Source of the DNA: Gammaproteobacteria bacterium
GTDB taxonomy: Bacteria > Pseudomonadota > Gammaproteobacteria > Xanthomonadales > Wenzhouxiangellaceae
Length of the DNA: 64,000 nucleotides
Assembly: GCA_009908385.1 (NCBI GenBank)
Contig: JAAAPE010000073.1
Coordinates: 1 to 64,000, forward strand
Direction: 5' to 3'
The first letter of the stretch is position 1. The number at the start of each line of letters is the position of its first letter. The notes under the pieces are model-generated. The model was given only the letters and a program-made list of their open reading frames with translations. It had not been told where the DNA came from and made no database searches. The position numbers and the translations under genes were made by a program. This document shows positions 18,666-39,988 of this stretch, piece after piece.

Positions 18666-20489
18666 ATGAGATATCTGCCGCTCGCATTCAGCGTCGTTCT
18701 CGCGCTCGCCCCGTTCGGCATCAGCGCCCAGGAGTCGACGGAAGAAACCGGGTCGGAGGCGCAGGCCGAAGATCAGGGAGAGGAAAGGCGGGTTCGCCGG
18801 CTGGGGGACGTGCTGGGGGAAGGTTCCGACGAGTTTTCCATGGACATTCCCAACATCGCAGTGCCCGCAGAGCCGGTGGAGGATGTTCCGCAGGTCACAT
18901 TGCCCGACCCGGAACAGGATCAGCGCCTGCAGATGCTGCTGCGCACGCGCGCCTTCGTTCCCAACGACCCCGACACCGAACAGGCCATCAGCGACCTGCT
19001 CGACGAGGTGGAGGTCGATATCCGCGCCGCGCTCGACGAGGAGAATTTCGAGCTGGCCCAGCAGCTGGCCGGCGTGGTGCGTGAAGTCGAGCCCGAGCGG
19101 GAGATCATCGCTGAGGTGGCCGACGCGGTCGAGCGGGACGCGACCGTGGGCCAGTGGCTCGAGCAGGCCCAGGCGGCACTGGAAGCGGGGCAGCTGACCG
19201 CGCCGCCGGGCGCGAACGCCGTCGAACTGTTCAACCAGGTGCTGGAAGCCGAACCGGACAACGCCGAGGCGCAGGCCGGCCTGGTCAGCACGCACCAGGC
19301 CCTGCTTGCCGACGCGATCGCCATGGCGCGCGACGATCTCGACTTCGAGGGCGCCGAAGCCCGTCTGGTTGAAGCCGAGGAAGTCCGCGAGGCCCCGGAG
19401 GCCGTGACCGAAGCACGCGCCAGCATTGCCGATTTCAGAACGCGCTACGTCGAACAGCTCGACAGCGAAGTGCTCGCTCACATCGACGAGGGCCGCTTCG
19501 AGGAGGCGGAGGACGCCATTACCGAGCTGGTCGCCCTGGGCCACGACCGCAATCGGATCGACGCGCTCCAGGCGTCGCTGACCGACGCGCGTCGATACGG
19601 CAGTTTCCAGCCGGGCCAGGTCTTCAGCGAGCAGATCGAGCGACTCGGTATCAGCGGTCCCCAGATGGTCGTGGTCCCGGCGGGCAGCTTCATGATGGGC
19701 TCGCCCGAAGACGAGGAAGATCGCATGGCCAACGAGGGGCCGCAACGCCGGGTGACCTTCGATCGCGGCTTCGCCGTCGCGCTGACCGAGGTCACCGTGG
19801 GCCAGTTCGCCGAATTCGTCAGCGATACCGGCTATCGGACCGATGCCGAGATATCGGGCGGGTCGCGCGTCTACGACCTCGAATCGGGGCGCATGGACGA
19901 AGAGGACGACATACACTGGCGGCACGATTACTCCGGCGAGGATGCCGATGAGGATCTGCCGGTCATCCACATCTCATGGCGTGACGCCAGTGCCTACGCC
20001 AACTGGCTTTCCGACCAGACCGGCCGCACCTACCGGCTGCCGTCCGAAGCCGAATTCGAATATGCCCTGAGAGCCGGCAGCCAGGCGCCCTACTGGTGGG
20101 GCAACGGTTCGCCGCCGGAGGACGAAGTCGAGAACGTGACCGGTGACGGAGACGTATCGCCGACGGGCGCGCGCTGGAACGTGGCCTTCCGTCGTTACAC
20201 GGACGATTTCTGGGGTCCGGCCCCGGTGGCCACGCTGCAGACCAATCCCTTCGGTTTGTACGACATGAGCGGCAACGTCATGGAGTGGGTCGATGACTGC
20301 TGGCACGACAGTTTCGTGAGGGCGCCCTCGGACGGCACTGCCTGGGTCAACCCCGGCTGCGAGCGCCGTGTCATCAAGGGCGCGTCCTGGTCGAGCACGC
20401 CGGCCATGTCGCGTTCCGCCTTCCGGATTTCCAGCAGCACTTCGAGCACGGACATGCGGGTCGGATTCCGCATCGTCCGGGATCTCTGA
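18666..20489 (+). CDS. Secreted formylglycine-generating-enzyme-like (SUMF1 domain) protein with helical N-terminal half
   Basis: 607 aa from ATG 18666. The ATG begins a signal peptide (cleavage near SAQES, about residue 20); earlier in-frame starts do not. Residues about 60-320 are acidic, glutamate- and alanine-rich helices resembling TPR-like repeats. The C-terminal 280 residues are a SUMF1/FGE-sulfatase domain, from VVVPAGSFMMGS through LPSEAEFEYA and SGNVMEWVDD to VGFRIVRDL. Many bacterial proteins with this fold are not formylglycine enzymes, and no sulfatase is present nearby. I call only the fold; the location should be periplasmic. Confidence 0.85.
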   Translation: MRYLPLAFSVVLALAPFGISAQESTEETGSEAQAEDQGEERRVRRLGDVLGEGSDEFSMDIPNIAVPAEPVEDVPQVTLPDPEQDQRLQMLLRTRAFVPNDPDTEQAISDLLDEVEVDIRAALDEENFELAQQLAGVVREVEPEREIIAEVADAVERDATVGQWLEQAQAALEAGQLTAPPGANAVELFNQVLEAEPDNAEAQAGLVSTHQALLADAIAMARDDLDFEGAEARLVEAEEVREAPEAVTEARASIADFRTRYVEQLDSEVLAHIDEGRFEEAEDAITELVALGHDRNRIDALQASLTDARRYGSFQPGQVFSEQIERLGISGPQMVVVPAGSFMMGSPEDEEDRMANEGPQRRVTFDRGFAVALTEVTVGQFAEFVSDTGYRTDAEISGGSRVYDLESGRMDEEDDIHWRHDYSGEDADEDLPVIHISWRDASAYANWLSDQTGRTYRLPSEAEFEYALRAGSQAPYWWGNGSPPEDEVENVTGDGDVSPTGARWNVAFRRYTDDFWGPAPVATLQTNPFGLYDMSGNVMEWVDDCWHDSFVRAPSDGTAWVNPGCERRVIKGASWSSTPAMSRSAFRISSSTSSTDMRVGFRIVRDL

Positions 20490-20509
20490 AGCCCGATCCC
20501 GTCTTCCGG

Positions 20510-20537
20510 CCGGGCCGCGCTCCGACGCGCGGCCCGG
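20510..20537 (+). terminator. GC-rich hairpin after the SUMF1-domain gene
   Basis: Perfect 10 bp stem CCGGGCCGCG/CGCGGCCCGG with an 8 nt loop, 20 nt after the stop codon. There is no T tract, so intrinsic termination is uncertain. Confidence 0.4.
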
Positions 20538-20603
20538 TCGCTCCCCCCGAGTTTTCGCTCCGGCCCGGCCCGGTTTTCCGGGCACCATATGGCCTTGCGC
20601 CAC

Positions 20604-20626
20604 TATTAGAAAAAGCTTATATTAGA
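20604..20626 (+). promoter_or_regulatory. AT-rich promoter region with TATTAGA direct repeat upstream of sqr
   Basis: TATTAGA occurs at 20604-20610 and again at 20620-20626, a 16 bp spacing, inside an AT-rich island of an otherwise GC-rich window. The island extends to GATATAAAG at 20634-20642. It is the likely promoter and perhaps an operator for sqr. Which half is the -10 element and which the regulator site cannot be decided from sequence. Confidence 0.5.
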
Positions 20627-20702
20627 TGGTGAAGATATAAAGGGCGCCCGGTAACAACGTGGATCCTCCGCGTGACGCGGGGTGCCGACCAAGGAGGAGT
20701 CC

Positions 20703-21986
20703 GTGGCCAGAATCGTCATCATCGGAGCCGGCATCGGCGGCGTGCCGGCCGCCTACGAGCTGCGCGACCAACTCGGATCAGAGCATTCGATCACCCTCAT
20801 CGGCGCCCAGCCGTATTTCCAGTTCGTGCCGTCCAATCCCTGGGTGGCCGTGGGCTGGCGCGACGCCCGGGCGATCACGGTCGACCTGGCCGGTCCAATG
20901 GAAAAGCGCGGCATCCGGTTCGTTCAGGGCACGGCGAGCAATATCGATCCCCAGGCTCGCGAGGTCAGCCTGTCAGGCGGGGAGAAACTCGATTACGACT
21001 ACCTGGTCATCACCACAGGGCCCGAGCTCGCTTTCGACGCCATCGAGGGCCTGGGGCCCGAGCATGGTCACACCCACTCCATCTGCACGCTCGAACACGC
21101 CGAGAAGGCCTGGGCGGACTATCAGCGATTTCTCGACGACCCCGGGCCGATCGTCATCGGTGCGGTGCAGGGCGCCAGCTGTTTCGGACCGGCCTACGAG
21201 TTCGCCATGATCGTCGATGCCGACCTGCGCAAGCGCAAGCTGCGCGACAAGGTGCCGATCACCTTCGTCACCAGCGAACCCTACATCGGTCATCTCGGCC
21301 TGGGCGGCGTGGGCGATTCCAAGAGCCTGATGGAGCACGAGCTGCGCGAGCGCCATATCCGCTGGGTGACGAATGCGCGGGTGGATCGAGTCGAAGCGGG
21401 CAAGATGCAGATTACCGAGGTCGACGACGACGGCGAGGACCGTCGCAGCCAGGAGCTGCCCTTCGAGTTCTCCATGATGCTCCCTTCCTTCCGCGGCGTG
21501 CCGGCCGTGGCGGCCACCGAGGGCCTGTGCAACCCGAAGGGCTTCGTCAACATCGATCGTCACCAGCGCAATCCGAACTATCCCGAGATCTACTCGGCCG
21601 GCGTCTGCGTCGCCATTCCGCCGGTCGAGGAGACCCCGCTGCCCGTAGGTGCGCCCAAGACCGGCTACATGATCGAATCGATGATCAGCGCGATCGTTCA
21701 CAACATCGCCGCGGATATCGCCGGACGGCCGGTCGACGCAGAGGCGACCTGGAACGCGATCTGCCTGGCCGACCTGGGCGACTCGGGTGTGGCCTTCGTG
21801 GCCCTGCCGCAGATTCCACCGCGCAACGTGACCTGGGCCAAGCAGGGCAAGTGGGTGCACTGGGCCAAGATTGCCTTCGAGAAGTATTTCCTGCGCAAGG
21901 TTCGCAAGGGCCACGCCGAGCCCGTCTACGAGCGCTACGTGCTCAAGGCGCTGGGGATCACGCGACTGACCGGAAGCGCCCGTTAG
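20703..21986 (+). CDS. sqr: Sulfide:quinone oxidoreductase
   Basis: 427 aa from GTG 20703, preceded by a strong AAGGAGG ribosome-binding site. It is a FAD flavoprotein of the disulfide-reductase superfamily that oxidises sulfide and reduces ubiquinone at the membrane. The N-terminal dinucleotide site is IVIIGAGIGGVPAA (4-17). Candidate redox cysteines are Cys128, Cys160 (GASCFGPAYEF) and Cys354 (AICLADLGD). These positions closely match the three essential cysteines of the Acidithiobacillus-type enzyme. Electrons could enter the bc1 complex encoded at 51.6-54.2 kb. The long AT-rich leader suggests separate regulation. Confidence 0.9.
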   Translation: MARIVIIGAGIGGVPAAYELRDQLGSEHSITLIGAQPYFQFVPSNPWVAVGWRDARAITVDLAGPMEKRGIRFVQGTASNIDPQAREVSLSGGEKLDYDYLVITTGPELAFDAIEGLGPEHGHTHSICTLEHAEKAWADYQRFLDDPGPIVIGAVQGASCFGPAYEFAMIVDADLRKRKLRDKVPITFVTSEPYIGHLGLGGVGDSKSLMEHELRERHIRWVTNARVDRVEAGKMQITEVDDDGEDRRSQELPFEFSMMLPSFRGVPAVAATEGLCNPKGFVNIDRHQRNPNYPEIYSAGVCVAIPPVEETPLPVGAPKTGYMIESMISAIVHNIAADIAGRPVDAEATWNAICLADLGDSGVAFVALPQIPPRNVTWAKQGKWVHWAKIAFEKYFLRKVRKGHAEPVYERYVLKALGITRLTGSAR

Positions 21987-22029
21987 GCGAGTCCGCGCCG
22001 CGCCCGGCCGTCGCGGTATCATCGACGGC

Positions 22030-22737
22030 ATGTGTGGACGAGGTGGGCTCGACTATTCCTGGAGCGAGGTCTATCGCTACCTGGACATCTTCGGTTCGCC
22101 GCCATCCGGCGGCGTGAGACGGCTCAACGTAGCGCCGTCGCGCCGCCAGGGCGGCGAGGTTCACTGGACGCGTCTTCCCGTCTGTCGCGCCGCCGACTCG
22201 AAGCGGCGCCTCGACGAACTGGTGTGGCCGCTCGTGCCGAACTGGGCCCGCGCCGAACTTCCCGAGTATGCGACCGCCAACTGCCGTTCGGAACCCGGAC
22301 GGCCGTTCGGCGAGACGGTGGGGCGCAAGCCTGCGTTTCGCACCGCCTGGAAGCGCGGCCAGCGGTGCCTGGTGCCGTTTTCCTGGTTCTACGAGTGGGA
22401 CCAGCGTAGCCAGCCAAAGCAGCCCTACCGGGTCACGAGCGCCGGCGGAGAGCTCCTGGTCATGGCCGGCCTCTGGGATCGTTCGCAGTCGCCGTCCGGA
22501 GAGGCCGTGGAGAGCTTCACCCTGATCACGACCGAACCCAACGAACTGCTACGGGCCATCGGCCATCACCGGTCACCGGTGATCCTCGATCCCGGAGGCT
22601 TCGAAACCTGGCTGGCAGGCAGCGCGGAAGAAGCCGAGCGCTTGATCGTGCCGCCGACGGAGGGGCTTCTGGCGGCCTCCGCGGTCACGCGTGCGGTCAA
22701 CAACCCCGGCTACGAGGGCGAAGACCTGCTGCCCTGA
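22030..22737 (+). CDS. SOS-response-associated peptidase / abasic-site crosslinking protein (YedK/HMCES family)
   Basis: 235 aa. The catalytic Cys2 is in place (MCGRGG) and becomes N-terminal after Met removal. The family also shows NVAPSR, VPFSWFYEW and LLRAIGHHRSPVIL, carrying the Asn, Glu and His that support abasic-site binding. It forms a stable thiazolidine crosslink with abasic sites in single-stranded DNA. No LexA-like operator was identified upstream. Confidence 0.95.
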   Translation: MCGRGGLDYSWSEVYRYLDIFGSPPSGGVRRLNVAPSRRQGGEVHWTRLPVCRAADSKRRLDELVWPLVPNWARAELPEYATANCRSEPGRPFGETVGRKPAFRTAWKRGQRCLVPFSWFYEWDQRSQPKQPYRVTSAGGELLVMAGLWDRSQSPSGEAVESFTLITTEPNELLRAIGHHRSPVILDPGGFETWLAGSAEEAERLIVPPTEGLLAASAVTRAVNNPGYEGEDLLP

Positions 22738-22782
22738 CACCGCGCTGGCCGCCCGACGCGCACACGGGGAGCAAGGAGGTCG

Positions 22783-22869
22783 TGGTGCCGGGAGCGGGAA
22801 TCGAACCCGCACTGCCTTTCGGCAAACGGATTTTGAGTCCGTCGCGTCTACCAGTTCCGCCACCCCGGC
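22783..22869 (-). tRNA. tRNA-Leu (anticodon CAA)
   Basis: 87 nt class II cloverleaf on the minus strand with acceptor GCCGGGG/TCCCGGC, anticodon loop CTCAAAA, long variable arm (TTTGCCGAAAGGCAG) and encoded CCA. Confidence 0.96.
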
Positions 22870-22922
22870 ATCGGCCGCCTATTGTCTTTCGCTGCCCCGC
22901 GATTGTCCAGTCGCCCGGATGG

Positions 22923-23495
22923 TCAGCTGGCGTCCAGGCTGAGGCTGGTCGGCCTGGGCTGGTACCAGTCGCCGTCGACGGGCTTGAACACGCAGCACTC
23001 GTTCATCACGCCGGAATAGATGTGGATGGTGATGGCCGGCTGGTCCTCGCTCGGGTTGGCGATGGTGTGATGCTCGTGCGGCGGAATCAGGCTGCCGGCG
23101 CTGCCGACTCCCGTTCGCATGGTCGTGCGCGGTTCCAGCCGGAACTGATCCTTGCCCCGCTCGACCAGCTCGTACTGAACCACTTCGATTTCCCCGTGCC
23201 AGACGGCTTCCACGCACCACATGCCGGCGTGGTCGTGAAGCGGCGTACCCTGGCCGGGCCCCCAGGTCATGGCCAGCACGGTGTAGCCAAGCTCCTCGTC
23301 CTGGTGCAGCAGTCGCCGGCAGTAGTGATCCTTGCTGTACTCGTAGACGCACTGCGGCAGCTGGATGCTTTCGTCCGCAACGAGCTCGCAAAGGCACCGG
23401 CGCAGGTTTTCGGTAATGTCCTCGGCGCAATCGGCCGAGACGGCGCGGTGGATCTTGTCGATCATGCGCGACTTTCCGGGGAATTCGAGGCTCAT
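22923..23495 (-). CDS. Cysteine dioxygenase family protein (cupin)
   Basis: 190 aa from the ATG at 23495, which overlaps the metX stop (ATGA). It is a cupin that should oxidise cysteine to cysteine sulfinate with non-heme iron. Iron ligands are His87 and His89 (PLHDHAGMWC) with a third His in PPHEHHTIAN (142 or 143). Cys94 sits five residues after His89 and Tyr160 lies in HIYSG. These are the spacing equivalents of the Cys93-Tyr157 crosslink pair of mammalian CDO. The much longer open frame running to 26150 is not a gene. Substrate could also be a related thiol. Confidence 0.88.
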   Translation of the reverse strand: MSLEFPGKSRMIDKIHRAVSADCAEDITENLRRCLCELVADESIQLPQCVYEYSKDHYCRRLLHQDEELGYTVLAMTWGPGQGTPLHDHAGMWCVEAVWHGEIEVVQYELVERGKDQFRLEPRTTMRTGVGSAGSLIPPHEHHTIANPSEDQPAITIHIYSGVMNECCVFKPVDGDWYQPRPTSLSLDAS

Positions 23496-24577
23496 TTCAA
23501 CCACTTCCTGATGGGTTTGCCAAATGTCGGGACGTCGGCCAGGAATGCGTCGTGCCCCTGGACCGAAGGCAGGGCCTGGTAGGTGACGTCGTTGCCGCTG
23601 GCCTCCAGGGCCGCGGACAGTTCCTTCTGCTGGATCAGGGGGAACAGGATATCGGTCTTGACGCCCAGCACCAGGGCCTCGCCGGAGAAACAGCGATCGA
23701 ACATCCGCTTGAGCGTCTCCTCGCTGTCGCAGAAATCGAAGTTGTCCATCGCGCGCGACAAGTAGAGGTAGCTGCAGGGATCGAACTGGCCGACGAACTT
23801 GCGTGCGTGGGTCTCGAGGTAGGACTCGACTGCGAAGCGCATGCCGAACAGCGTGGGCGGGAAATAGTCCTGGCTTTGCCGCCCGAATCGCTGCTGCCAT
23901 TCGGTAGCCGATCGATAGGAGATCATGCCCAGCTTGCGGGCCAGCCGCATGCCGACCTCGGGCCAGGCATCCTCGGTGTATTGCCCGTCGCGGAAATTGC
24001 GATCGGTGACGATCGCTTCGCGCTGCAGGGAGCGGATCGCGATGGCCATGGGGGTCGCCGAGCAGGCGGTCGAGATCAGCGCCAGTTTGCGCGTGCTCTG
24101 CGGATACTGCTTGAGCCATGCCAGGGCCGTGAGGCCGCCCATCGACGGCCCGATGACCGCGTGCAGGGTCTCGATGCCCAGGTGCTCGACCACCAGGCGC
24201 GTGGCGCGGGCGATGTCCTCGATGGCCAGCTCCGGAAAGGCCAGCCGCCAGGGCTTGCCGGTTTCCGGGTTGATGCTGGCCGGGCCCGTGGATCCCATGC
24301 AGGAGCCGAGCGAATTGACGCAGAGCACGAAGAAACGATCGGTGTCGATGTGCTTGCCCGGCCCGATCATGTCTTCCCACCATCCGGGCTCGGGATCCTG
24401 CGAGCTGGAGGCCGCGTGCGCGCCCGGCGAGAGGCCGGTGAATATCAGAACCGCGTTGGACTTGTCGGCGTCGAGCTCGCCCCACGACTCCCAGGCGAGG
24501 CGGACGTGGGGCAGCCTTCCGCCGCGGTAGAGCGTGAACGGTCGCTCGAGGTCGAAGTAGTGGGTGGCCGGACCCAT
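23492..24577 (-). CDS. metX: MetX-family O-acyltransferase (homoserine O-acetyl/succinyltransferase or serine O-succinyltransferase)
   Basis: 361 aa alpha/beta-hydrolase-fold acyltransferase. The nucleophile elbow is GPSMGG (about 152-157), with an oxyanion-region motif NSLGSCMGSTGPASINP. Members activate homoserine for methionine synthesis, but some proteobacterial members acylate serine for cysteine synthesis. Overlap with a cysteine dioxygenase gene makes the serine/cysteine branch worth considering. The leader from the divergent intergenic region is short (a TAGAAT element about 30 nt upstream), leaving no room for a SAM riboswitch. Confidence 0.92.
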   Translation of the reverse strand: MGPATHYFDLERPFTLYRGGRLPHVRLAWESWGELDADKSNAVLIFTGLSPGAHAASSSQDPEPGWWEDMIGPGKHIDTDRFFVLCVNSLGSCMGSTGPASINPETGKPWRLAFPELAIEDIARATRLVVEHLGIETLHAVIGPSMGGLTALAWLKQYPQSTRKLALISTACSATPMAIAIRSLQREAIVTDRNFRDGQYTEDAWPEVGMRLARKLGMISYRSATEWQQRFGRQSQDYFPPTLFGMRFAVESYLETHARKFVGQFDPCSYLYLSRAMDNFDFCDSEETLKRMFDRCFSGEALVLGVKTDILFPLIQQKELSAALEASGNDVTYQALPSVQGHDAFLADVPTFGKPIRKWLK

Positions 24578-32449: not shown

Positions 32450-33362
32450 GGAAGGTAACTGGGAAAAGTTCAGGATAAAGCACCCTCCGCGCTTTGACCA
32501 CCGGCTGACGACCGCGCTCGGTTGCTGCCTCGTCTTTGGCCTTTTTCTACTGCTGCCGGCGGTCGGGGCCGCGCAGGTTTTCTGGTCGGTCAGCGACGAC
32601 GAGGGGCGCCAGAACTGGATTCTGGGGACGATCCACAGCGAGGATCCCCGGCTGCTCGAGTGGCCCGAGGCGCTGGTACAGGCCCTGGTCGAGGCCGACC
32701 GCCTCGCCCTGGAGCTGGCGCCCGATGCCGCCATGCTCGATCGCATGGAGCAGGCCATGCGCTACCAGGACGCACGGCTCGAAGCGGTGCTCGGCGCGCA
32801 GCTTTACAGCCAGGTTGTCGACGTGCTGGGCAACCATTACGGGCTGGCGGAGTCGGCGGTCGAGCGCTTGCGGCCCTGGGCGGTGGCGATGACCCTGGCG
32901 ACGCCACCGGCCGAAACCGGCATGTTCATGGATCTGATGCTGTCCGTTCGCGCCCGCGGGGCCGGCACGGAGGTGCTCGCGCTCGAAACCCTGGACGAGC
33001 AGATCGACTTCCTGGCGGACCTGCCCCGGTCCGAGCAGATCGAACTCATCCGTCACGCGCTTGCGCGGCGCAGCCTGCAGGGCGAGGACTTCGAGGCCAT
33101 CCTGTCGGCGTACCTGGCGGGCGACCTGGAAAGGCTCGTGGAAGTGGCCGATAGGCAGCTGTCGGGTTTGAGTCGCGGAATAGTCATGCATTTCAAGGAG
33201 ATCGGGCTTGAACGCAGAAACCGTGTCATGCTGGAGCGCGCCCGGCCCTGGCTCGAGGAGGGCGGCTTGATCATTGCCGTCGGGGCCCTTCACCTGCCCG
33301 GTGAAGCGGGTTTGCTGAGCCTGCTTCGCGAAAGCGGCTGGCGGGTCGAGCCCGTCTATTAG
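32448..33362 (+). CDS. TraB/GumN family protein
   Basis: 304 aa from ATG 32448; ATG 32439 is an alternative. An N-terminal hydrophobic segment ([22 protein letters not shown]) after a long basic stretch looks like a signal peptide, so it is probably periplasmic. The family's two GxxH-type motifs appear as LGTIHSED (near residue 60) and VGALHLPG (near 280). The TraB fold is related to metalloproteases such as Tiki; bacterial roles are unclear. It converges on the hvf operon with only 7 bp between stop codons. Confidence 0.87.
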
Positions 33363-33369
33363 CGATCCG

Positions 33370-34155
33370 TCAGCCTGGCTTACGGGTCCCCAGGACGAGT
33401 TCACGCCGGTGCAAACGTTCCAGCATGGTCAGCCCGGACGCGACGATCGCTGCGGTATCGCTGCTGCCCATCTCCCGGGCGATCCGCTCGAGGATGTCGC
33501 GGCCGGACGAGGTGGGCTGGGCTTCGATCAGTTCGAGCAGCCGGGCGGTCACCGCGTTGAGCTTCATGAAGCCGGGGCGGTCTTCACGCGTGCGCCAGGC
33601 GGCCAGGATCAAGTCCTGTTCGAGCGGCGCCTCGGGCAGGTAGTCGGCCCGGATCTCGTGGACCGGCCACTCGTACTTCGCCAGGCGTAGGGTCGGGTTG
33701 AGCACGATCGGGGCCTCGAGCAGTTCGCCGTCCGGGTCGCAGTCGACCGCACGCGGATCGGCCTCGGCCAGGCGCACGCAGGTTTCCAGGTATTCCCAGT
33801 GCGCCAGTTGCAGCGCGAACGGCGGCAGATCGCGCGGCTGTCTTTCCTGCAGGAAGCGCACGAATTCCCGGCCGATCTCGGTGAACATCGGCGTGCTCGG
33901 GCGGTGCTCGGTCATGAATTCCCGGATCAGGGACCGCCAGCGCTTGTCGTCGACGATCCTGCGCAGCACGGGGAAATTCTTCGAAAACAGGTTGTTGAGA
34001 TTGCCGAAGAACAGTCGCCGATAGATCGCGAGCCGACGCTCCTCCGGTCCCTCCGGCGCCGCGACGCCTTCGGGGTTACGGAGGTGATCGGCGAAGCGGC
34101 GCTGCAGTTCGAGCAGTTGCTCAGGAGGCGAATTGCTGTCGCTTGGCGGGGGCAT
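33370..34155 (-). CDS. hvfC: HvfC/BufC-like DUF2063 (putative DNA-binding domain) protein, MNIO partner
   Basis: 261 aa from ATG 34155, overlapping the end of hvfB by 35 bp. The N-terminal half ([42 protein letters not shown]) is the DUF2063 domain, and the C-terminal half is a winged-helix-like region. In MNIO RiPP systems this partner binds the precursor peptide and presents it to the HvfB-type enzyme. Despite the domain name, DNA binding has not been the demonstrated role. Last gene of the operon. Confidence 0.9.
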
Positions 34156-34978
34156 GGGTTTCCTGCAGGTTGCGAATCTCGTCGATTTCGGCGAGCAGCT
34201 CGGCGACGGGCGGAAAATTGAAGTCGCGCTCGAGCAGTGTCGGCACGGCCCCGAAGCGCTGGTAGGCCTCGGCGAGCAGCTGCCAGACCGGTTCGATGAC
34301 GGGTGCACCGTGGGTATCCACGATCAGGTCTTCGGCCTCGTTGTGGTGCCCCGCGACGTGGATGTAGGCAACGCGGTCGTCCGGCAGGCCGGCGAGGAAC
34401 TCGTGGGGATCGTAGCGGTGATTGACGCTGTTGACGTAGATGTTGTTGACGTCGAGCAGCAACAGGCAGTCGGCCCGCTCGAGGACCGCGTTGATGAAAT
34501 CCAGCTCGCTCATTTCTGCGCCGACGGTCGCGTAGTAGGAAATGTTCTCGACCGCGATTCGCCGGCCGACCAGCTCCTGGGTCCGGGCGATGCGGGACGC
34601 GACCCAGTCGACGGCCTGCTCCGTGAAGGGGATCGGCATCAGGTCGTAGAGGTGGCCGTGCTCTGAGCAGTAGCTGAGGTGTTCCGAGTAGCCGCGGATG
34701 CCGTGTTCGTCCAGAAAGCGCCTGACCCGCGCGAGAAAGCCGCGGTCGAGCGGTTCCGGCGCGCCCAGCGACAGGGACAGGCCGTGACAGACGAAGGGAA
34801 AGCGTTCGGTGTACTCGGCGAAGCGGCGGCCGAGACGGCCACCGACGCCGATCCAGTTTTCCGGAGCGACCTCCATGAAGCCGACCCGTGACAGGTCGGC
34901 TTCACGAAGGGGGTCGAGCAGGCCGCGTCTGAGGCCCAGCCCGGCTCCGGTCAGGTCGAAGGACGAAGCCCGTGTCAT
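34121..34978 (-). CDS. hvfB: DUF692 multinuclear non-heme iron enzyme (MNIO), HvfB/BufB type
   Basis: 285 aa TIM-barrel protein. Likely iron ligands run in the family order: Glu of VAPENWIG, His of [11 protein letters not shown] of SEHLSYCS, Glu/Asn of AVENISYY, Asp/Asn of DVNNIYVN, His of YIHVAGH, Asp and His of VDTHGAPV, and Glu of LLERDFNFP. Family members use oxygen at a two- or three-iron centre to convert peptide cysteines to oxazolone/thioamide or thiooxazole. Here the substrate should be the adjacent cysteine-rich peptide at 34990-35328, 11 bp upstream. Confidence 0.94.
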
Positions 34979-34989
34979 GATCGAATCGA

Positions 34990-35328
34990 TCAGGCCGCGC
35001 CGCAGCTTCCCTCGCCGCAGGACCCTTCTTCGTCCTTGTCGTCGCCCGAATCCTCGCCGCAGTTGCCTTCACCGCAGCTGCCTTCGGAATCCTTGTCTTC
35101 GCCGCAGTTGCCTTCACCGCAGCTGCCTTCTTCGTTCTTATCTTCACCGCAATTGCCTTCGCCACACTTGCCTTCCTGGTGGTCATCGGCGGAGACCTGG
35201 AAGCCGGCCGGGAGATCTTCGGCCTGGAAGGGGTTGGCGCCGGCGTCGTGAGAGGCCATCGCGCTGAGTGAGAATGACGCCGCTGCAACGGTGCTGATGG
35301 CGGTCAGGAGATGTTTCTTGTCGGACAT
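34990..35328 (-). CDS. hvfA: Cysteine-rich secreted precursor peptide with eight EGxCG motifs (HvfA-like)
   Basis: 112 aa. A Sec signal peptide ([20 protein letters not shown], likely cleavage after AMA near residue 25) is followed by an acidic region holding eight EGxCG motifs as four doublets: [20 protein letters not shown] twice, and [10 protein letters not shown]. They are separated by short acidic linkers. All eight cysteines lie in these motifs. HvfA-type peptides of this form are modified by the MNIO partner and bind copper. Strong GGAGG ribosome site 9 nt before ATG 35328. The DNA repeat structure itself spans about 35000-35175. Confidence 0.92.
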
Positions 35329-35382
35329 GACTGATCCTCCAGGGATTGGATTGGAATGGAACACCAAACTTGATGTTCGTCG

Positions 35383-35393
35383 ATAATCTAGCA
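35383..35393 (-). promoter_or_regulatory. Extended -10 promoter element of the hvfA operon
   Basis: On the minus strand TGCTAGATT (TGn followed by TAGATT, 35385-35390) lies 57 nt before the hvfA ATG in an AT-richer stretch. I saw no convincing -35 and no Caulobacter-type SigF box, so the controlling sigma factor is open. Confidence 0.45.
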
Positions 35394-35452: not shown

Positions 35453-36115
35453 CTAGATCCCTTCGGGCCGGCTCTCTTCGCGGTAGCGCCCTTTCTGCCG
35501 CCAGCGGCACAGGTCATAGACCGGGCATTGCCCGCACAGCGGCCGGCGTGCCTTGCAGGTGTAGCGGCCGTGCAGGATCAGCCAGTGATGCGCATCCTTC
35601 AGGTATTCGCCGGGCACGCGCTTGAGCAGTGCCTTCTCGACCGCCAGGGGCGTCCTTCCCGGCGCCAGGCCGGTCCGGTTGGATACCCGGAATATGTGTG
35701 TATCCACGGCCATGGTCGGCTGCTCGAATGCCGTGTTGAGCACGACATTGGCGGTCTTTCGACCGACCCCGGCGAGGGCTTCCAGCCCGGAACGGTTGTC
35801 CGGCACCACGCCGCGGTGCTTCTCGACCAGGTCCCGGCAGGTCCTGATGATGTGCTTCGCCTTGGAATTGAACAGGCCGATGGTCTTGATGTAGTCTTTC
35901 AGGCCCTCTTCGCCCAGCTCGAGGATTTCCTGCGGCGTGCTGGCGACCTGGAACAGCCGGCGAGTGGCCTTGTTGACGCCCACGTCCGTGGCCTGGGCCG
36001 ACAGGATGACGGCCACCAGCAGCTCGAAGGGCGTGTCGTACTCCAGTTCCGTGGTCGGGTGGGGATCGAGTTCCTTCAGGCGGCGAAAGAAGGCTTCGCG
36101 ATCGGCCTTGTTCAT
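35453..36115 (-). CDS. nth: Endonuclease III
   Basis: 220 aa bifunctional DNA glycosylase/AP lyase for oxidised pyrimidines. Helix-hairpin-helix with catalytic Lys120 (GVGRKTANV), Asp138 (VDTHIFRV) and 4Fe-4S ligands Cys187, Cys194, Cys197 and Cys203, the same numbers as in E. coli. ATG 36115 overlaps the rnfE stop, keeping the classic rnfE-nth coupling. Confidence 0.98.
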   Translation of the reverse strand: MNKADREAFFRRLKELDPHPTTELEYDTPFELLVAVILSAQATDVGVNKATRRLFQVASTPQEILELGEEGLKDYIKTIGLFNSKAKHIIRTCRDLVEKHRGVVPDNRSGLEALAGVGRKTANVVLNTAFEQPTMAVDTHIFRVSNRTGLAPGRTPLAVEKALLKRVPGEYLKDAHHWLILHGRYTCKARRPLCGQCPVYDLCRWRQKGRYREESRPEGI

Positions 36116-36807
36116 GGCGTGGACGGCTCCGCGGGCGATGGAGAGGCGCCCGATTCTAGGCCGGACTCGCGGGAACGGTTGACCAGCTTCTGCCGCAGCG
36201 CCACGAGCAGGCCCAGCCCGATGAAGGCGCCCGGAGGCAGTACGGCCAGCAGTAGACCCTGGTCGAAAGGCAGCATCGGGATCGTCCAGTCCGCCGCCGC
36301 CGGGCCGAAGAGCATGTCGGCACCGGCCAGGAGGGTGCCCTGACCGACGATCTCGCGCCCGGCCCCCAGGACGAGCAGCACGGCGGCGAAACCGGCGCCC
36401 TGGGCGAGGGCGTCGACCAGGCTGGCGCTCACCGGCTGTTTCGACGCGAAGGCCTCGGCCCGGGCGAGGATGGTGCAGTTGGTGACGATCAGCGGCACGA
36501 AGATGCCGAGCGTTCGGCTCAGGTCGTGCAGCCAGGCCTGCATCGACAGGTCGATGGCGGTGACGGTCGAGGCGATGATCAGGACGAAGGCCGGAATGCG
36601 GATTTCCGGGCGCCACGCGTGGCGCAGGGCCGAGACCAGCAGGCCGCTGACGACCAGCACCAGCAGGGTCGCCAGCCCCAGCGCGAGGCCGTTGACCGCC
36701 GTGTTGGACACCGCCAGCAGTGGACACAGGCCGAGCAGCTGCACCAGGCCGGGATTGTTGTCCCAGAGCCCGTTGCGCCAGATTCGTTTCGCGTCGCTTG
36801 CGGCCAT
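36112..36807 (-). CDS. rnfE: Rnf electron transport complex subunit E
   Basis: 231 aa, six-helix membrane protein of the RnfA/RnfE pair. Conserved WDNNPGLVQLLGLCPLLAVSN and the internal cysteine segment VPLIVTNCTILARAEAFA correspond to the parts that carry the membrane-embedded iron-sulfur centre shared with RnfA. Overlaps nth by 4 bp. Confidence 0.96.
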   Translation of the reverse strand: MAASDAKRIWRNGLWDNNPGLVQLLGLCPLLAVSNTAVNGLALGLATLLVLVVSGLLVSALRHAWRPEIRIPAFVLIIASTVTAIDLSMQAWLHDLSRTLGIFVPLIVTNCTILARAEAFASKQPVSASLVDALAQGAGFAAVLLVLGAGREIVGQGTLLAGADMLFGPAAADWTIPMLPFDQGLLLAVLPPGAFIGLGLLVALRQKLVNRSRESGLESGASPSPAEPSTP

Positions 36808-36857
36808 GCTTCAGTGATTCCGTTCAAGGCGCCGTCGGCAACCCGGCGACTCCGATT

Positions 36858-37490
36858 CTAGTCCGGTCCGTTAGCGTTGGCGGGACCCGACTCGGCGAAG
36901 ACACGGTTCCTGTGCGACTCGAAAGTCGCGAGAACCCGTTTGACCGCGTCGATCACCGCCGAGGAGGTGATGGTCGCACTCGTGACGGTGTCGAATGCGC
37001 CGTCCCGCCGGTCGGGCGCCCACCGGTCGCGGGACGGATTGCCCAGCGACTTGCCCTCGAACTGTTCCAGCCAGTCACTCCGGCCGCTTTCGATGCGGTC
37101 GCCGAGGCCGGGCGTTTCGCGATGCTCGAGGACGCGAACCCCGAGCACGTCGCCGCCGTCGTCCACGGCGACCAGCAGCCGGATATCACCACTGTAGCCG
37201 CGCGGCGTCGTGACGTCGAACACGGCGGCGACGGGCTGGCCGTCCAGTCGTGCGGTGTAGACCGTTGTCGCTTCCAGGCCGTCGATATCGATCGGCCGGG
37301 CGGAATCGAGCAGGTCGTTGTCGTGGTTTCGTCCGGCGAGTATGGCCGAGACGGCCCGCAATGCGTATGCACGGCGTTGATCATCGATCGTCGATCGAGT
37401 CAGCTCGTCGATTCCGCCAAGGGTGACGGCGGCTCCCAGGCCGATCAGGCCGAGCAAGGCCAATGGTCGCCATCTGGAAGCGTCAGGCAT
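36858..37490 (-). CDS. rnfG: Rnf electron transport complex subunit G (FMN-binding)
   Basis: 210 aa. One N-terminal membrane helix (about 10-27) and a periplasmic FMN-binding domain. The flavinylation site reads DTVTSATITSSA, so FMN should attach to Thr173. The usual SGAT core is TSAT here, with Ser in the glycine position. Followed by rnfE. Its normal upstream partner rnfD is 1.36 kb away, beyond an unrelated gene and an inverted-repeat element. Confidence 0.94.
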   Translation of the reverse strand: MPDASRWRPLALLGLIGLGAAVTLGGIDELTRSTIDDQRRAYALRAVSAILAGRNHDNDLLDSARPIDIDGLEATTVYTARLDGQPVAAVFDVTTPRGYSGDIRLLVAVDDGGDVLGVRVLEHRETPGLGDRIESGRSDWLEQFEGKSLGNPSRDRWAPDRRDGAFDTVTSATITSSAVIDAVKRVLATFESHRNRVFAESGPANANGPD

Positions 37491-37659
37491 GGTGGATTGC
37501 GCCCGGAGTCATGGCCTGCATTGTATGAAATCCTCGCCATGGTCGAGTTGTCGTGCCTGCGGATTGTTCGGGCTTGCCGGGGAGCGGGTTGCAGGGCTCG
37601 AGGCCCGGTGGCAGACTTCGGCGGCGTTGGGGGCAACGTGAACGATCGAAGGTGTTGGC

Positions 37660-38418
37660 ATGAACACGAGTATCGGAAATATCCTGATCGAGGCCGCGCG
37701 GGAGCTACAGCGAAACGCATCGGCATTGCTGCTGGCCGTTGCGGTGCCGGCGCTGCTTGCCGCCCTACTGGAAACGTTCAAGACCCAGTACCAGCAGCCT
37801 TTCCCCATCTCGCTGCTCACGACGATCGCGATGTTCTTTCTCTACGGCCAGATTGCCGTCACCTGCCATCGCATCATCCTGCTGGGACCGGACAGTCTGC
37901 CCAATCGATGGGGGATTTACGCCACTGCCCCGGTCTGGCGTTTCTTTGGCGCGATGCTGGTATTTTTGGGAATCTGGATGATGGGCATGATGCTGATCAT
38001 TCCGTTCGTCACGCCGATGCTGATGGCCGTGGAGCCCGGTGCCGCCAGGATCCTGGCCCTCCTGATCTTTTCCGGTCTTGCCCTGGTCGCGATCCTGGCC
38101 ATGAGTCGGGTCGTCCTCCTGTTTCCGTCGCTGGCGGTGTCTGGCGGGCATGATGTCAACGACATCATCGAGCTCAGCGCGCCCGTCTGGGCTCGACTGG
38201 CGGCCATCATGCTGTTGGCGGGCATCGCTACGGCCATCGTTGCTTTCCCCCTGACGTGGTTGGGCCTGGCAACGGATTCATTCGTGATTGAATTGACTTC
38301 GGCCCTCATCGGATGCCTGGCCGGAATCTACACTGTGGCGGCCATCAGTTGCGCTTACCGCGCCGTCCTGCAAGTTTCTCCGGCAAGGGCTGATAGCGAG
38401 AGGGTGGAGCGCGCCTGA
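37660..38418 (+). CDS. Uncharacterised multi-pass membrane protein
   Basis: 252 aa with about six hydrophobic helices: ALLLAVAVPALLAALL, SLLTTIAMFFLYGQIAV, FFGAMLVFLGIWMMGMMLII, ILALLIFSGLALVAILAM, LAAIMLLAGIATAIVAF and LIGCLAGIYTVAAISCAYRAV. It lacks recognisable catalytic motifs; the helix pattern resembles generic membrane proteins of the YciC/DUF-type. On the opposite strand, it splits rnfG from rnfD and ends 84 bp before a 0.33 kb inverted-repeat element. Function unknown. Confidence 0.75.
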   Translation: MNTSIGNILIEAARELQRNASALLLAVAVPALLAALLETFKTQYQQPFPISLLTTIAMFFLYGQIAVTCHRIILLGPDSLPNRWGIYATAPVWRFFGAMLVFLGIWMMGMMLIIPFVTPMLMAVEPGAARILALLIFSGLALVAILAMSRVVLLFPSLAVSGGHDVNDIIELSAPVWARLAAIMLLAGIATAIVAFPLTWLGLATDSFVIELTSALIGCLAGIYTVAAISCAYRAVLQVSPARADSERVERA

Positions 38419-38502
38419 ATGATGGGATACGTGATCGGCGAGGCCCGCCGCTGACGCGTCGCGACCGGGCTCGCAAGAGGCAGGCCGCCTGTACCGTCGA
38501 AG

Positions 38503-38838
38503 CTAGTGTACCCCGTCACTCATTGTGTAACTTATAGCGAGTCGGAAAGCGTTTAGCTGCAAGGCCTGTCTCGCAGGGAATGGTGGTGCCATTTTCAAGA
38601 GACAGAACGCCGCAGGTGAACGCTTCCCGGCTCGCCCTTCGGGAGCGTGCCTGAACCGACATTGCAGGGCAGGCGGAGCCGCATGGCGGATTTCGCGAAG
38701 CGAAAAAAGCCATGCGAGCGCAGCCGTCGCCCGTGTTGCCCCCTTGCAAAGGGCCCTGCCATTCACTGCGGGGCGCGCCTTGCACTGTCGGCTCAGGCGC
38801 GCTCTATAAGTTACACAATGAGTGACGGGGTACGCTAG
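38503..38838. mobile_element. Non-autonomous inverted-repeat (MITE-like) element
   Basis: 31 bp terminal inverted repeats at 38507-38537 and 38804-38834 differ only at the outermost base. Left end begins TGTACCCCGTCACTCATTG. Each end is flanked by CTAG (38503-38506 and 38835-38838), which may be a 4 bp target duplication or part of the repeat. The 266 bp inside has no convincing gene. No matching transposase is in the window. The inner sequence contains several small hairpins. Confidence 0.8.
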
Positions 38839-38845
38839 AAGCTTG

Positions 38846-39886
38846 TCAGCGGCCTGCGCGGCGGTGCCCGTAGGTGCGCGGCCGCGTCAGCCGATCGGTC
38901 AGCGGTGCGGCCATGTTCATCAAGAGGATCGCGAACGCCACGCCGTCCGGGTAGCCGCCCCAGCGACGGATGACCAGCGTGAGAATGGCCACGCCGGCGC
39001 CGAAGACCAGTTTGCCGCGCATGGTGCTGCAGCCGCTGACCGGATCGGTGGCGATGAAGAAGGCGCCCAGAACCAGTGCGCCCGAGAAGATGTGCTGCAG
39101 CGGCGAGGGGTGGGTGTCGGGGCCGAGCAGCCACAGCGGGGTCGACACGACGATGGTCGTGGCGATGACGGCGACGGGCACGTGCCAGGATATGACGCGC
39201 CGCCAAAGCAGGTAGAAGCCTCCGAGGGCGTAGAAATTGGCGATCCACTCCCAGCCCAGGCCGCCGAAGTCCCCGAAGATGGGTGCGTCCCGGATTTCGC
39301 TGATGGCCAGGTTCTCGGTCACGCCCGTGCGGAGTTCGTCGAGCGGCGTCGCGCCGGTCACGGCATCCAGGCGGGTCGAATCGGGCAGGGCGCCCGTGAA
39401 GATGGCCTGCGCCGTTTCGAGGAACCCCGGGATGCCCGGGGACAGTTGCCGGGGCAGCAACCACTGGCTCAGCTCCAGGGGAAAGGCGATGATGACGGCG
39501 GCGAAGCCGACCATGGCCGGGTTGAACAGGTTGTATCCGAGCCCGCCGTAGAGATGCTTGGCGACGACGATGGCGAATACCATGCCCACGGCCGCGATCC
39601 ACCACGGCGCCAGCGGCGGCATGCACAGGGCGAACAGCACGCCGGTGACCACCGCGCTGTAGTCGGACAGGAAGGGGCCGAGCGGCCGGTCCCGCAGCTT
39701 GAGCATGGCGGCCTCGAGGCCGACGGCGAAACCGACGGCCAGCAACAGCTGAAACAGAATGCCCGGTCCGAAGTACCAAACGTGCGCGGCCACCGCGGGC
39801 ACCAGGGCATAGAGCACCTGCCGCATCACGCCGCCCACGGTTGTGGCGGGTGGCTGGAAGGGCGCGCCGGAGGTCGCGAATTTCAC
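38846..39886 (-). CDS. rnfD: Rnf electron transport complex subunit D (FMN-binding membrane subunit)
   Basis: 346 aa from GTG 39886, which has a G-rich ribosome site (GGGGGG) directly upstream. The frame is open to 39982, but those 32 codons are translated repeat DNA (CCTGAAC-type units) and are not conserved. Multi-pass NqrB/RnfD fold. The flavinylation site DAVTGATPLD puts covalent FMN on a Thr near residue 180. Its stop is 8 bp from the CTAG-flanked inverted-repeat element. Confidence 0.95.
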   Translation of the reverse strand: MKFATSGAPFQPPATTVGGVMRQVLYALVPAVAAHVWYFGPGILFQLLLAVGFAVGLEAAMLKLRDRPLGPFLSDYSAVVTGVLFALCMPPLAPWWIAAVGMVFAIVVAKHLYGGLGYNLFNPAMVGFAAVIIAFPLELSQWLLPRQLSPGIPGFLETAQAIFTGALPDSTRLDAVTGATPLDELRTGVTENLAISEIRDAPIFGDFGGLGWEWIANFYALGGFYLLWRRVISWHVPVAVIATTIVVSTPLWLLGPDTHPSPLQHIFSGALVLGAFFIATDPVSGCSTMRGKLVFGAGVAILTLVIRRWGGYPDGVAFAILLMNMAAPLTDRLTRPRTYGHRRAGR

Positions 39887-39915
39887 GATCCCCCCCGTCG
39901 GTCCGAAGGCGGGTC

Positions 39916-39980
39916 TCCTGAACCCTGAAACCTGAACCCTGGAACCGCTTCCGACCCTGGAACCGAGCCCTGGAACCCCC
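39916..39980. repeat. Short repeat array, CCTGAAC/CCTGGAA type
   Basis: Consecutive 7-8 bp units (CCTGAAC, CCTGAAA, CCTGGAAC) fill the rnfC-rnfD gap. Same family as 49354-49398 and 49510-49540. It supplies a spurious N-terminal extension of the rnfD frame. Confidence 0.85.
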
Positions 39981-39988
39981 ATGACCGC

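Follow-up and report, generated by a model that had tools for sequence, protein, structure and literature searches.

A very probable HvfABC-type captophorin operon with a lysine-poor, acidic precursor in Wenzhouxiangella

Loci that combine an MNIO enzyme with a DUF2063 partner number more than 20,000-24,000; captophorin is the name proposed for this class (PMC13097082). The published products of the same three genes carry a 5-thiooxazole on every repeat and bind copper (PMC13097082, PMC13419390, PMC12538549). Fontiphorin, oxazolin and gonophorin all contain this group, and the oxazolone/thioamide assignment for HvfBC has been revised (PMC13097082, PMC13419390). About 2,000 precursors of the EGKCG kind have been described, with up to 58 Cys; their first type has two motifs per repeat, and another carries EF-hand domains (PMC12452194). 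At the residue preceding the Cys, FonBC tolerates Ala, Arg and Thr and rejects Glu and Phe; the position-3 variants that the FonBC text names do not include Ser or Asn (PMC13097082). The solved structures 3BWW and 3DEE are treated in the literature on this class as its MNIO and PME1 structures (PMC13097082), and in the related TglH the iron ligands are H71, H107, E151, D184, H216 and E258, with a third site formed by D184, N187, D229 and H231 (PMC10880893).

The locus analyzed here lies in a window of 64,000 nucleotides (the whole stretch of DNA that was analyzed) from a gammaproteobacterium of the genus Wenzhouxiangella with a 2.9-Mb, 85%-complete genome; the closest matches, at 88-89% identity, come from Wenzhouxiangella sp. 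15190 and W. sediminis. For the most part it is an ordinary member of the large, recently described captophorin class that includes oxazolin and fontiphorin. Its three genes, all on the minus strand, very probably form an HvfABC-type captophorin operon encoding a precursor, an MNIO and a DUF2063-RRE partner. The features are as follows:

33370-34155, minus strand: DUF2063 and RRE partner (PME1, HvfC type), 261 aa, from NF050145, Pfam and NGO1945 (PDB 3DEE)
34121-34978, minus strand: MNIO (DUF692/PF05114), HvfB type, 285 aa, from NF003818, Pfam and alignment
34990-35328, minus strand: HvfA/FonA-like captophorin precursor, 112 aa, from the NF050137 match and its motifs
34999-35175, minus strand: core region (residues 52-110), four doublets of EGxCG motifs, eight in total, from the sequence
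35336-35340, minus strand: Shine-Dalgarno GGAGG of the precursor gene, from the sequence and kept in relatives
35359-35378, minus strand: inverted repeat GAACATCA-N4-TGGTGTTC, putative 5'-UTR hairpin or operator, from a related hairpin with compensated pairs in a Wenzhouxiangella subclade
35388-35393, minus strand: TGCTAG, possible extended -10 element, conserved directly upstream of the hairpin
35453-36115, minus strand: nth (endonuclease III), downstream of rnfE/G/D (36112-39982), a conserved upstream neighbour listed as context rather than as part of the pathway

The precursor gene is separated by 11 bp from the start of the MNIO gene (34978), the end of which overlaps the start of hvfC by 35 bp (34121-34155), and the identical overlap is present in the relatives L052 and L053. 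These coordinates, the precursor length, the number of motifs, the gap and the overlap are exactly those given in a first-pass annotation of this DNA. In the profile search proposed there against the DUF692, DUF2063 and HvfA families, the precursor, the MNIO and the partner exceeded the curated NCBIfam thresholds of the HvfA-family repeat, HvfB and HvfC models, respectively, with matches far beyond chance (NF050137, E=2.2e-15; NF003818, E=2.2e-130; NF050145, E=9.8e-80). Its reading of the genes, an MNIO operon for a secreted and probably copper-binding modified peptide, finds support: these profiles, the relatives with solved structures, the iron ligands, the gene order and the published relatives all favour an operon of the HvfABC type, with an exported modified peptide that probably binds Cu(I). 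No DoxX-like HvfX gene is adjacent to the operon, and the sole DoxX found in the genome is located on another contig. One MNIO gene was found in the 85%-complete assembly, a search for DUF2282 across the host genome returned none, and a Cu-ATPase match above cut-off is present. A TraB/PrgY/GumN-family gene (32500-33362, plus strand) converges on hvfC, the stop codons of the two genes being just 7 bases apart. The partner need not be linked to the precursor and MNIO genes: in two Wenzhouxiangella genomes that each consist of a single contig (G027 with L037/L132 and G026 with L044/L133), hvfC is hundreds of kilobases away from these two genes.

The precursor ATG at 35328 is preceded by GGAGG at a distance of seven bases. 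A start at ATG 35394, which the mechanical ORF list uses (134 aa), is less probable because the Shine-Dalgarno sequence, the putative signal peptide and the homologues all place the beginning of the protein at MSDKK. By eye, residues 1-25 or thereabouts appear to form an N-terminal Sec-type signal peptide (KK, a hydrophobic stretch and AMA-S), a pattern conserved in relatives. The EGxCG motifs begin at residues 52, 57, 67, 72, 82, 87, 101 and 106 and account for all eight Cys of the precursor; the residues preceding the Cys are, in order, K, N, S, N, S, N, S and S, so that Lys is found in one of eight. A Lys at this position typifies the EGKCG/oxazolin branch of the captophorins without strictly defining it. 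Among relatives the E-G-x-C-G frame is retained and the linkers are divergent. The repeat domain scored 56 bits against NF050137 (cut-off 19.5), and the full-length HvfA equivalog NF050188 was not reached (48.5 bits, cut-off 95), so membership of the precursor in the HvfA family rests on its repeats and partner genes. Eight motifs in four doublets had initially been taken for an uncharacterised precursor type. This layout is not new: the Microbulbifer loci L109 and L130 have exactly the same one, EGKCG doublets are standard, and MmrA of Microbulbifer is described with five to eight Cys in EGKCG units (PMC12538549). Some EGKCG precursors of other Gammaproteobacteria (L006, L010, L038, L075 and L102) have an insert that resembles an EF hand (for example DTNKDGQVSKAEY) and lies between motifs or after them, and at L113, L123 and L039 a single locus holds two Cys-rich precursor frames, EGKCG-like or KKCGEGKCG.

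The MNIO matched the HvfB model NF003818 with 433.9 bits (cut-off 360) and Pfam PF05114 with E=6.8e-104, and its closest solved structure is 3BWW (E=6.6e-72). The partner scored 267.8 bits against the HvfC model NF050145 (cut-off 142), matched DUF2063 (PF09836, E=1.5e-26) and NGO1945_C (PF22106, E=3.9e-24), and is closest to 3DEE (NGO1945, E=1.3e-11) among solved structures. Judged by these sequence matches to solved relatives, the folds are settled. The NCBIfam enzyme models for bufferin, methanobactin, chryseobactin and ApyH all left the MNIO below cut-off, including BufB with 266.5 bits (cut-off 310) and MbnB with 40.4 bits (cut-off 325), and the partner gene encodes a DUF2063 protein, not MbnC. 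Putative iron ligands are H65, H100, E144, D176, N179, H207, D221, H223 and E250, with D252 as putative base. E151, D184, N187, H216, D229, H231 and E258 of TglH align to E144, D176, N179, H207, D221, H223 and E250, respectively, and H65 and H100 were paired with their TglH counterparts through conserved motifs. The first-pass annotation had named loss of the iron ligands as a finding that would speak against it; the ligands are intact and, together with R18, D252 and F253, invariant in 100 of 100 homologues, R17 being Lys in one. R17/R18, D252 and F253 appear to be the positional counterparts of Arg15/Arg16, the catalytic Asp249 and Phe250 of FonB (PMC13097082).

What sets this operon apart is a lineage-level loss of Lys before Cys, which the first-pass annotation did not mention, combined with strong acidity. 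We compared the precursors of 100 distinct loci, 18 of which formed the Wenzhouxiangella group (MNIO identity of at least 70.5%). Lys precedes the Cys in 12% of the motifs in this group versus 80% in the other 82 loci, the most frequent residues in the group being Ser (39%) and Ala (35%), with Asn at 8%, and the net charge of the core region averages -20 versus -2. Ser and Lys motifs are mixed within the precursors of some other lineages. GC content was considered as the cause of the Lys loss and is insufficient, as most other high-GC lineages keep Lys (rho = -0.27). Since, in addition, the charge of the MNIO is alike in Lys-poor and Lys-rich loci (-18.8 versus -18.0), neither overall protein charge nor GC explains the loss simply. 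MNIO columns that differ between the Lys-rich and Lys-poor sets exist and are confounded by phylogeny, so none of them is put forward as determining specificity. The acidity of the core may stem from haloalkaliphily, a lifestyle described for at least one Wenzhouxiangella member (PMC7691419). These natural replacements of Lys by Ser, Asn, Ala or Thr lend themselves to testing the requirements of the enzyme and of the copper site.

We consider it likely that the locus is a minimal captophorin operon for a RiPP of the oxazolin/fontiphorin type, the product being an exported Cu(I)-binding thiooxazole peptide. The starting points are the observed gene anatomy, family membership, intact iron ligands and three-gene conservation, and from the published relatives we infer that the peptide is modified, that all eight sites are used, that the product is exported and binds copper, and what its physiological role would be. 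The precursor would be synthesised with its Sec signal peptide and presented by the DUF2063-RRE partner to the MNIO, which, via a multi-iron centre and O2, would turn the Cys and the preceding carbonyl of each EGxCG into a 5-thiooxazole, each Cys losing 4 H and the eight sites together up to 32 Da. The modified peptide would then be exported to the periplasm, where its thiolates would bind Cu(I), probably buffering copper or oxidative stress. With respect to the chemistry, the first-pass annotation had left a choice between oxazolone/thioamide and thiooxazole groups; thiooxazole stands, and the oxazolone/thioamide part falls with its reassignment to 5-thiooxazole (PMC13097082, PMC13419390). 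A role in copper stress is not secure, because the Microbulbifer operon went undetected under copper and conferred only weak protection in E. coli (PMC12538549).

As FonBC accommodates Ala, Thr and Arg at this position, the Ser and Asn motifs are expected to be modified, and in spite of the replacement of Lys the modification most likely extends to all or most of the motifs. The MNIO might instead act on the Lys motif or a subset of motifs and leave the Ser/Asn motifs as free thiols, resulting in a mixed thiol/thiooxazole, metallothionein-like peptide, a possibility suggested by the single Lys among eight motifs, compared with 80% of motifs elsewhere, and by a model in which Lys3 is placed near Phe250 of FonB (PMC13097082). 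We regard this as unlikely, given that the tolerance of FonBC for Ala, Arg and Thr at the Lys position (PMC13097082) is joined by entire Wenzhouxiangella-group precursors that have no Lys motif at all next to an intact MNIO and partner, and by long EGSCG arrays in lineages outside the group (L104 and L072).

A different function, copper acquisition by a methanobactin-like chalkophore rather than copper buffering, could be imagined since methanobactins also use MNIO chemistry and the MbnB profile does match weakly (40.4 bits, cut-off 325). With no MbnB/MbnC-type match above cut-off, a DUF2063 partner, an enzyme that groups with HvfB and the placement of PME1-dependent MNIOs with stress and copper excess in the literature (PMC13097082), we find such a function very improbable. 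That the operon is decayed or silent in the Wenzhouxiangella lineage is hardly credible in view of three intact reading frames, invariant catalytic residues and a conserved Shine-Dalgarno sequence and upstream element, even though 9 of 30 genomes of the genus (some incomplete) gave no MNIO match and the Microbulbifer homologue was undetected in the proteome (PMC12538549).

Directly upstream of the operon and on the same strand are rnfD, rnfG, rnfE and nth (35453-39982). The nth gene precedes the MNIO gene in 27 of 68 loci with sufficient upstream sequence, where rnfE/G usually accompany it, and in 17 of 29 loci from the same genus, family and order. A class-wide sample of Gammaproteobacteria, with one genome per family, was evaluated, by manual comparison of two listings, for a co-oriented nth no more than 5 kb upstream. 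The gene was present in this position in 16 of 38 genomes with an HvfB-type enzyme (G000, G065, G067, G072, G090, G091, G098, G099, G100, G128, G134, G136, G140, G155, G164 and G166) and for about two lower-scoring MNIOs (G095 and G153); for 5 kb on one strand of a genome of about 3 Mb, adjacency by chance would be expected at a rate of roughly 1 in 1,000. Because each of these genomes represents a different family, the linkage is old and widespread. The same rnf-nth synteny was seen at loci within L052-L126. The main texts of two papers on the captophorin class make no mention of Rnf or endonuclease III. The plain reading of the rnf-nth-hvfABC order is shared ancestry of the gene order; that the genes are linked in function, through redox supply or oxidative stress, is hypothetical. 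It would be a long shot that the Lys-free acidic captophorins constitute a distinct functional subtype, in metal binding or as a salt-adapted matrix, and at the same time that the rnf-nth-hvfABC order reflects a working link, with Rnf/Rsx supplying electrons to the MNIO or taking part in a joint oxidative/metal-stress response. As a lead, the neighbourhood bears on the purpose of the peptides and on the source of MNIO reducing power.

About 50 bases before the precursor, a Wenzhouxiangella subclade carries a block composed of TTAAC, approximately 10 bases, TGCTAG plus TTGAC and then a hairpin, and the window has the hairpin and TGCTAG without TTAAC. The TGCTAG plus hairpin element is found at 35359-35393 of the window and at L148-L152, L154, L155 and L157. 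In seven sequences, two stem pairs change from A-U to G-C on both sides between subgroups, yielding six double-changed cells, a value reached in 0 of 500 shuffles and by none of the slid controls (at most 3); the compensated pairs may represent a single evolutionary event. By a strict pattern, the element is single-copy per genome in 8 of 30 genomes of the genus. The genome of the window has no second site of its own element variant, which argues against a regulon. A dedicated 5'-UTR hairpin or operator is the most plausible reading of the element. A general 5'-UTR hairpin before captophorin precursors across Gammaproteobacteria was rejected, the mean folding z-score near the ATG (-0.54) equalling that of a control segment (-0.53). 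A sigma-70 promoter scan of the region found none, the one terminator-like match lies inside the precursor coding region on the opposite strand and is below shuffled expectation, and an Rfam search of the window detected tRNAs only.

The locus is thus a well-formed addition to a very large RiPP class, and its lasting value lies in two leads, the Lys-free lineage and the synteny with rnf-nth. Bufferins 1 and 2 (BufABC; PMC12452194) likewise rely on an MNIO with a DUF2063-RRE partner and, as is probable here, on a Sec-exported precursor and a thiooxazole, but have DUF2282 or Cys-Lys precursors, whereas no DUF2282 was found in the genome of the window and its enzyme falls below the BufB cut-off. 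The bulbicupramide operon mmrABC of Microbulbifer (PMC12538549) also consists of three genes, and L109 and L130 share the eight motifs in four doublets, but with Lys at every motif, in contrast to Ser/Asn in the precursor of the window. The hvf operon sensu stricto differs by its adjacent HvfX; fon is a known case of a minimal operon lacking DoxX. Oxazolin (hvfABCX, nontypeable Haemophilus influenzae; PMC13419390) is alike in the HvfB/HvfC profiles, the EGxCG doublets and, in all likelihood, the signal peptide, but has three Lys-containing doublets and an adjacent DoxX-like gene, in contrast to the operon of the window, whose four doublets are poor in Lys and which has no DoxX next to it. Fontiphorin (fonABC, Fontimonas thermophila; PMC13097082) is likewise encoded by a minimal three-gene operon with EGxCG repeats and an MNIO plus PME1 without DoxX; it has seven modified EGKCG sites, whereas the operon of the window encodes eight motifs, seven of them with Ser/Asn for Lys, in a strongly acidic core.
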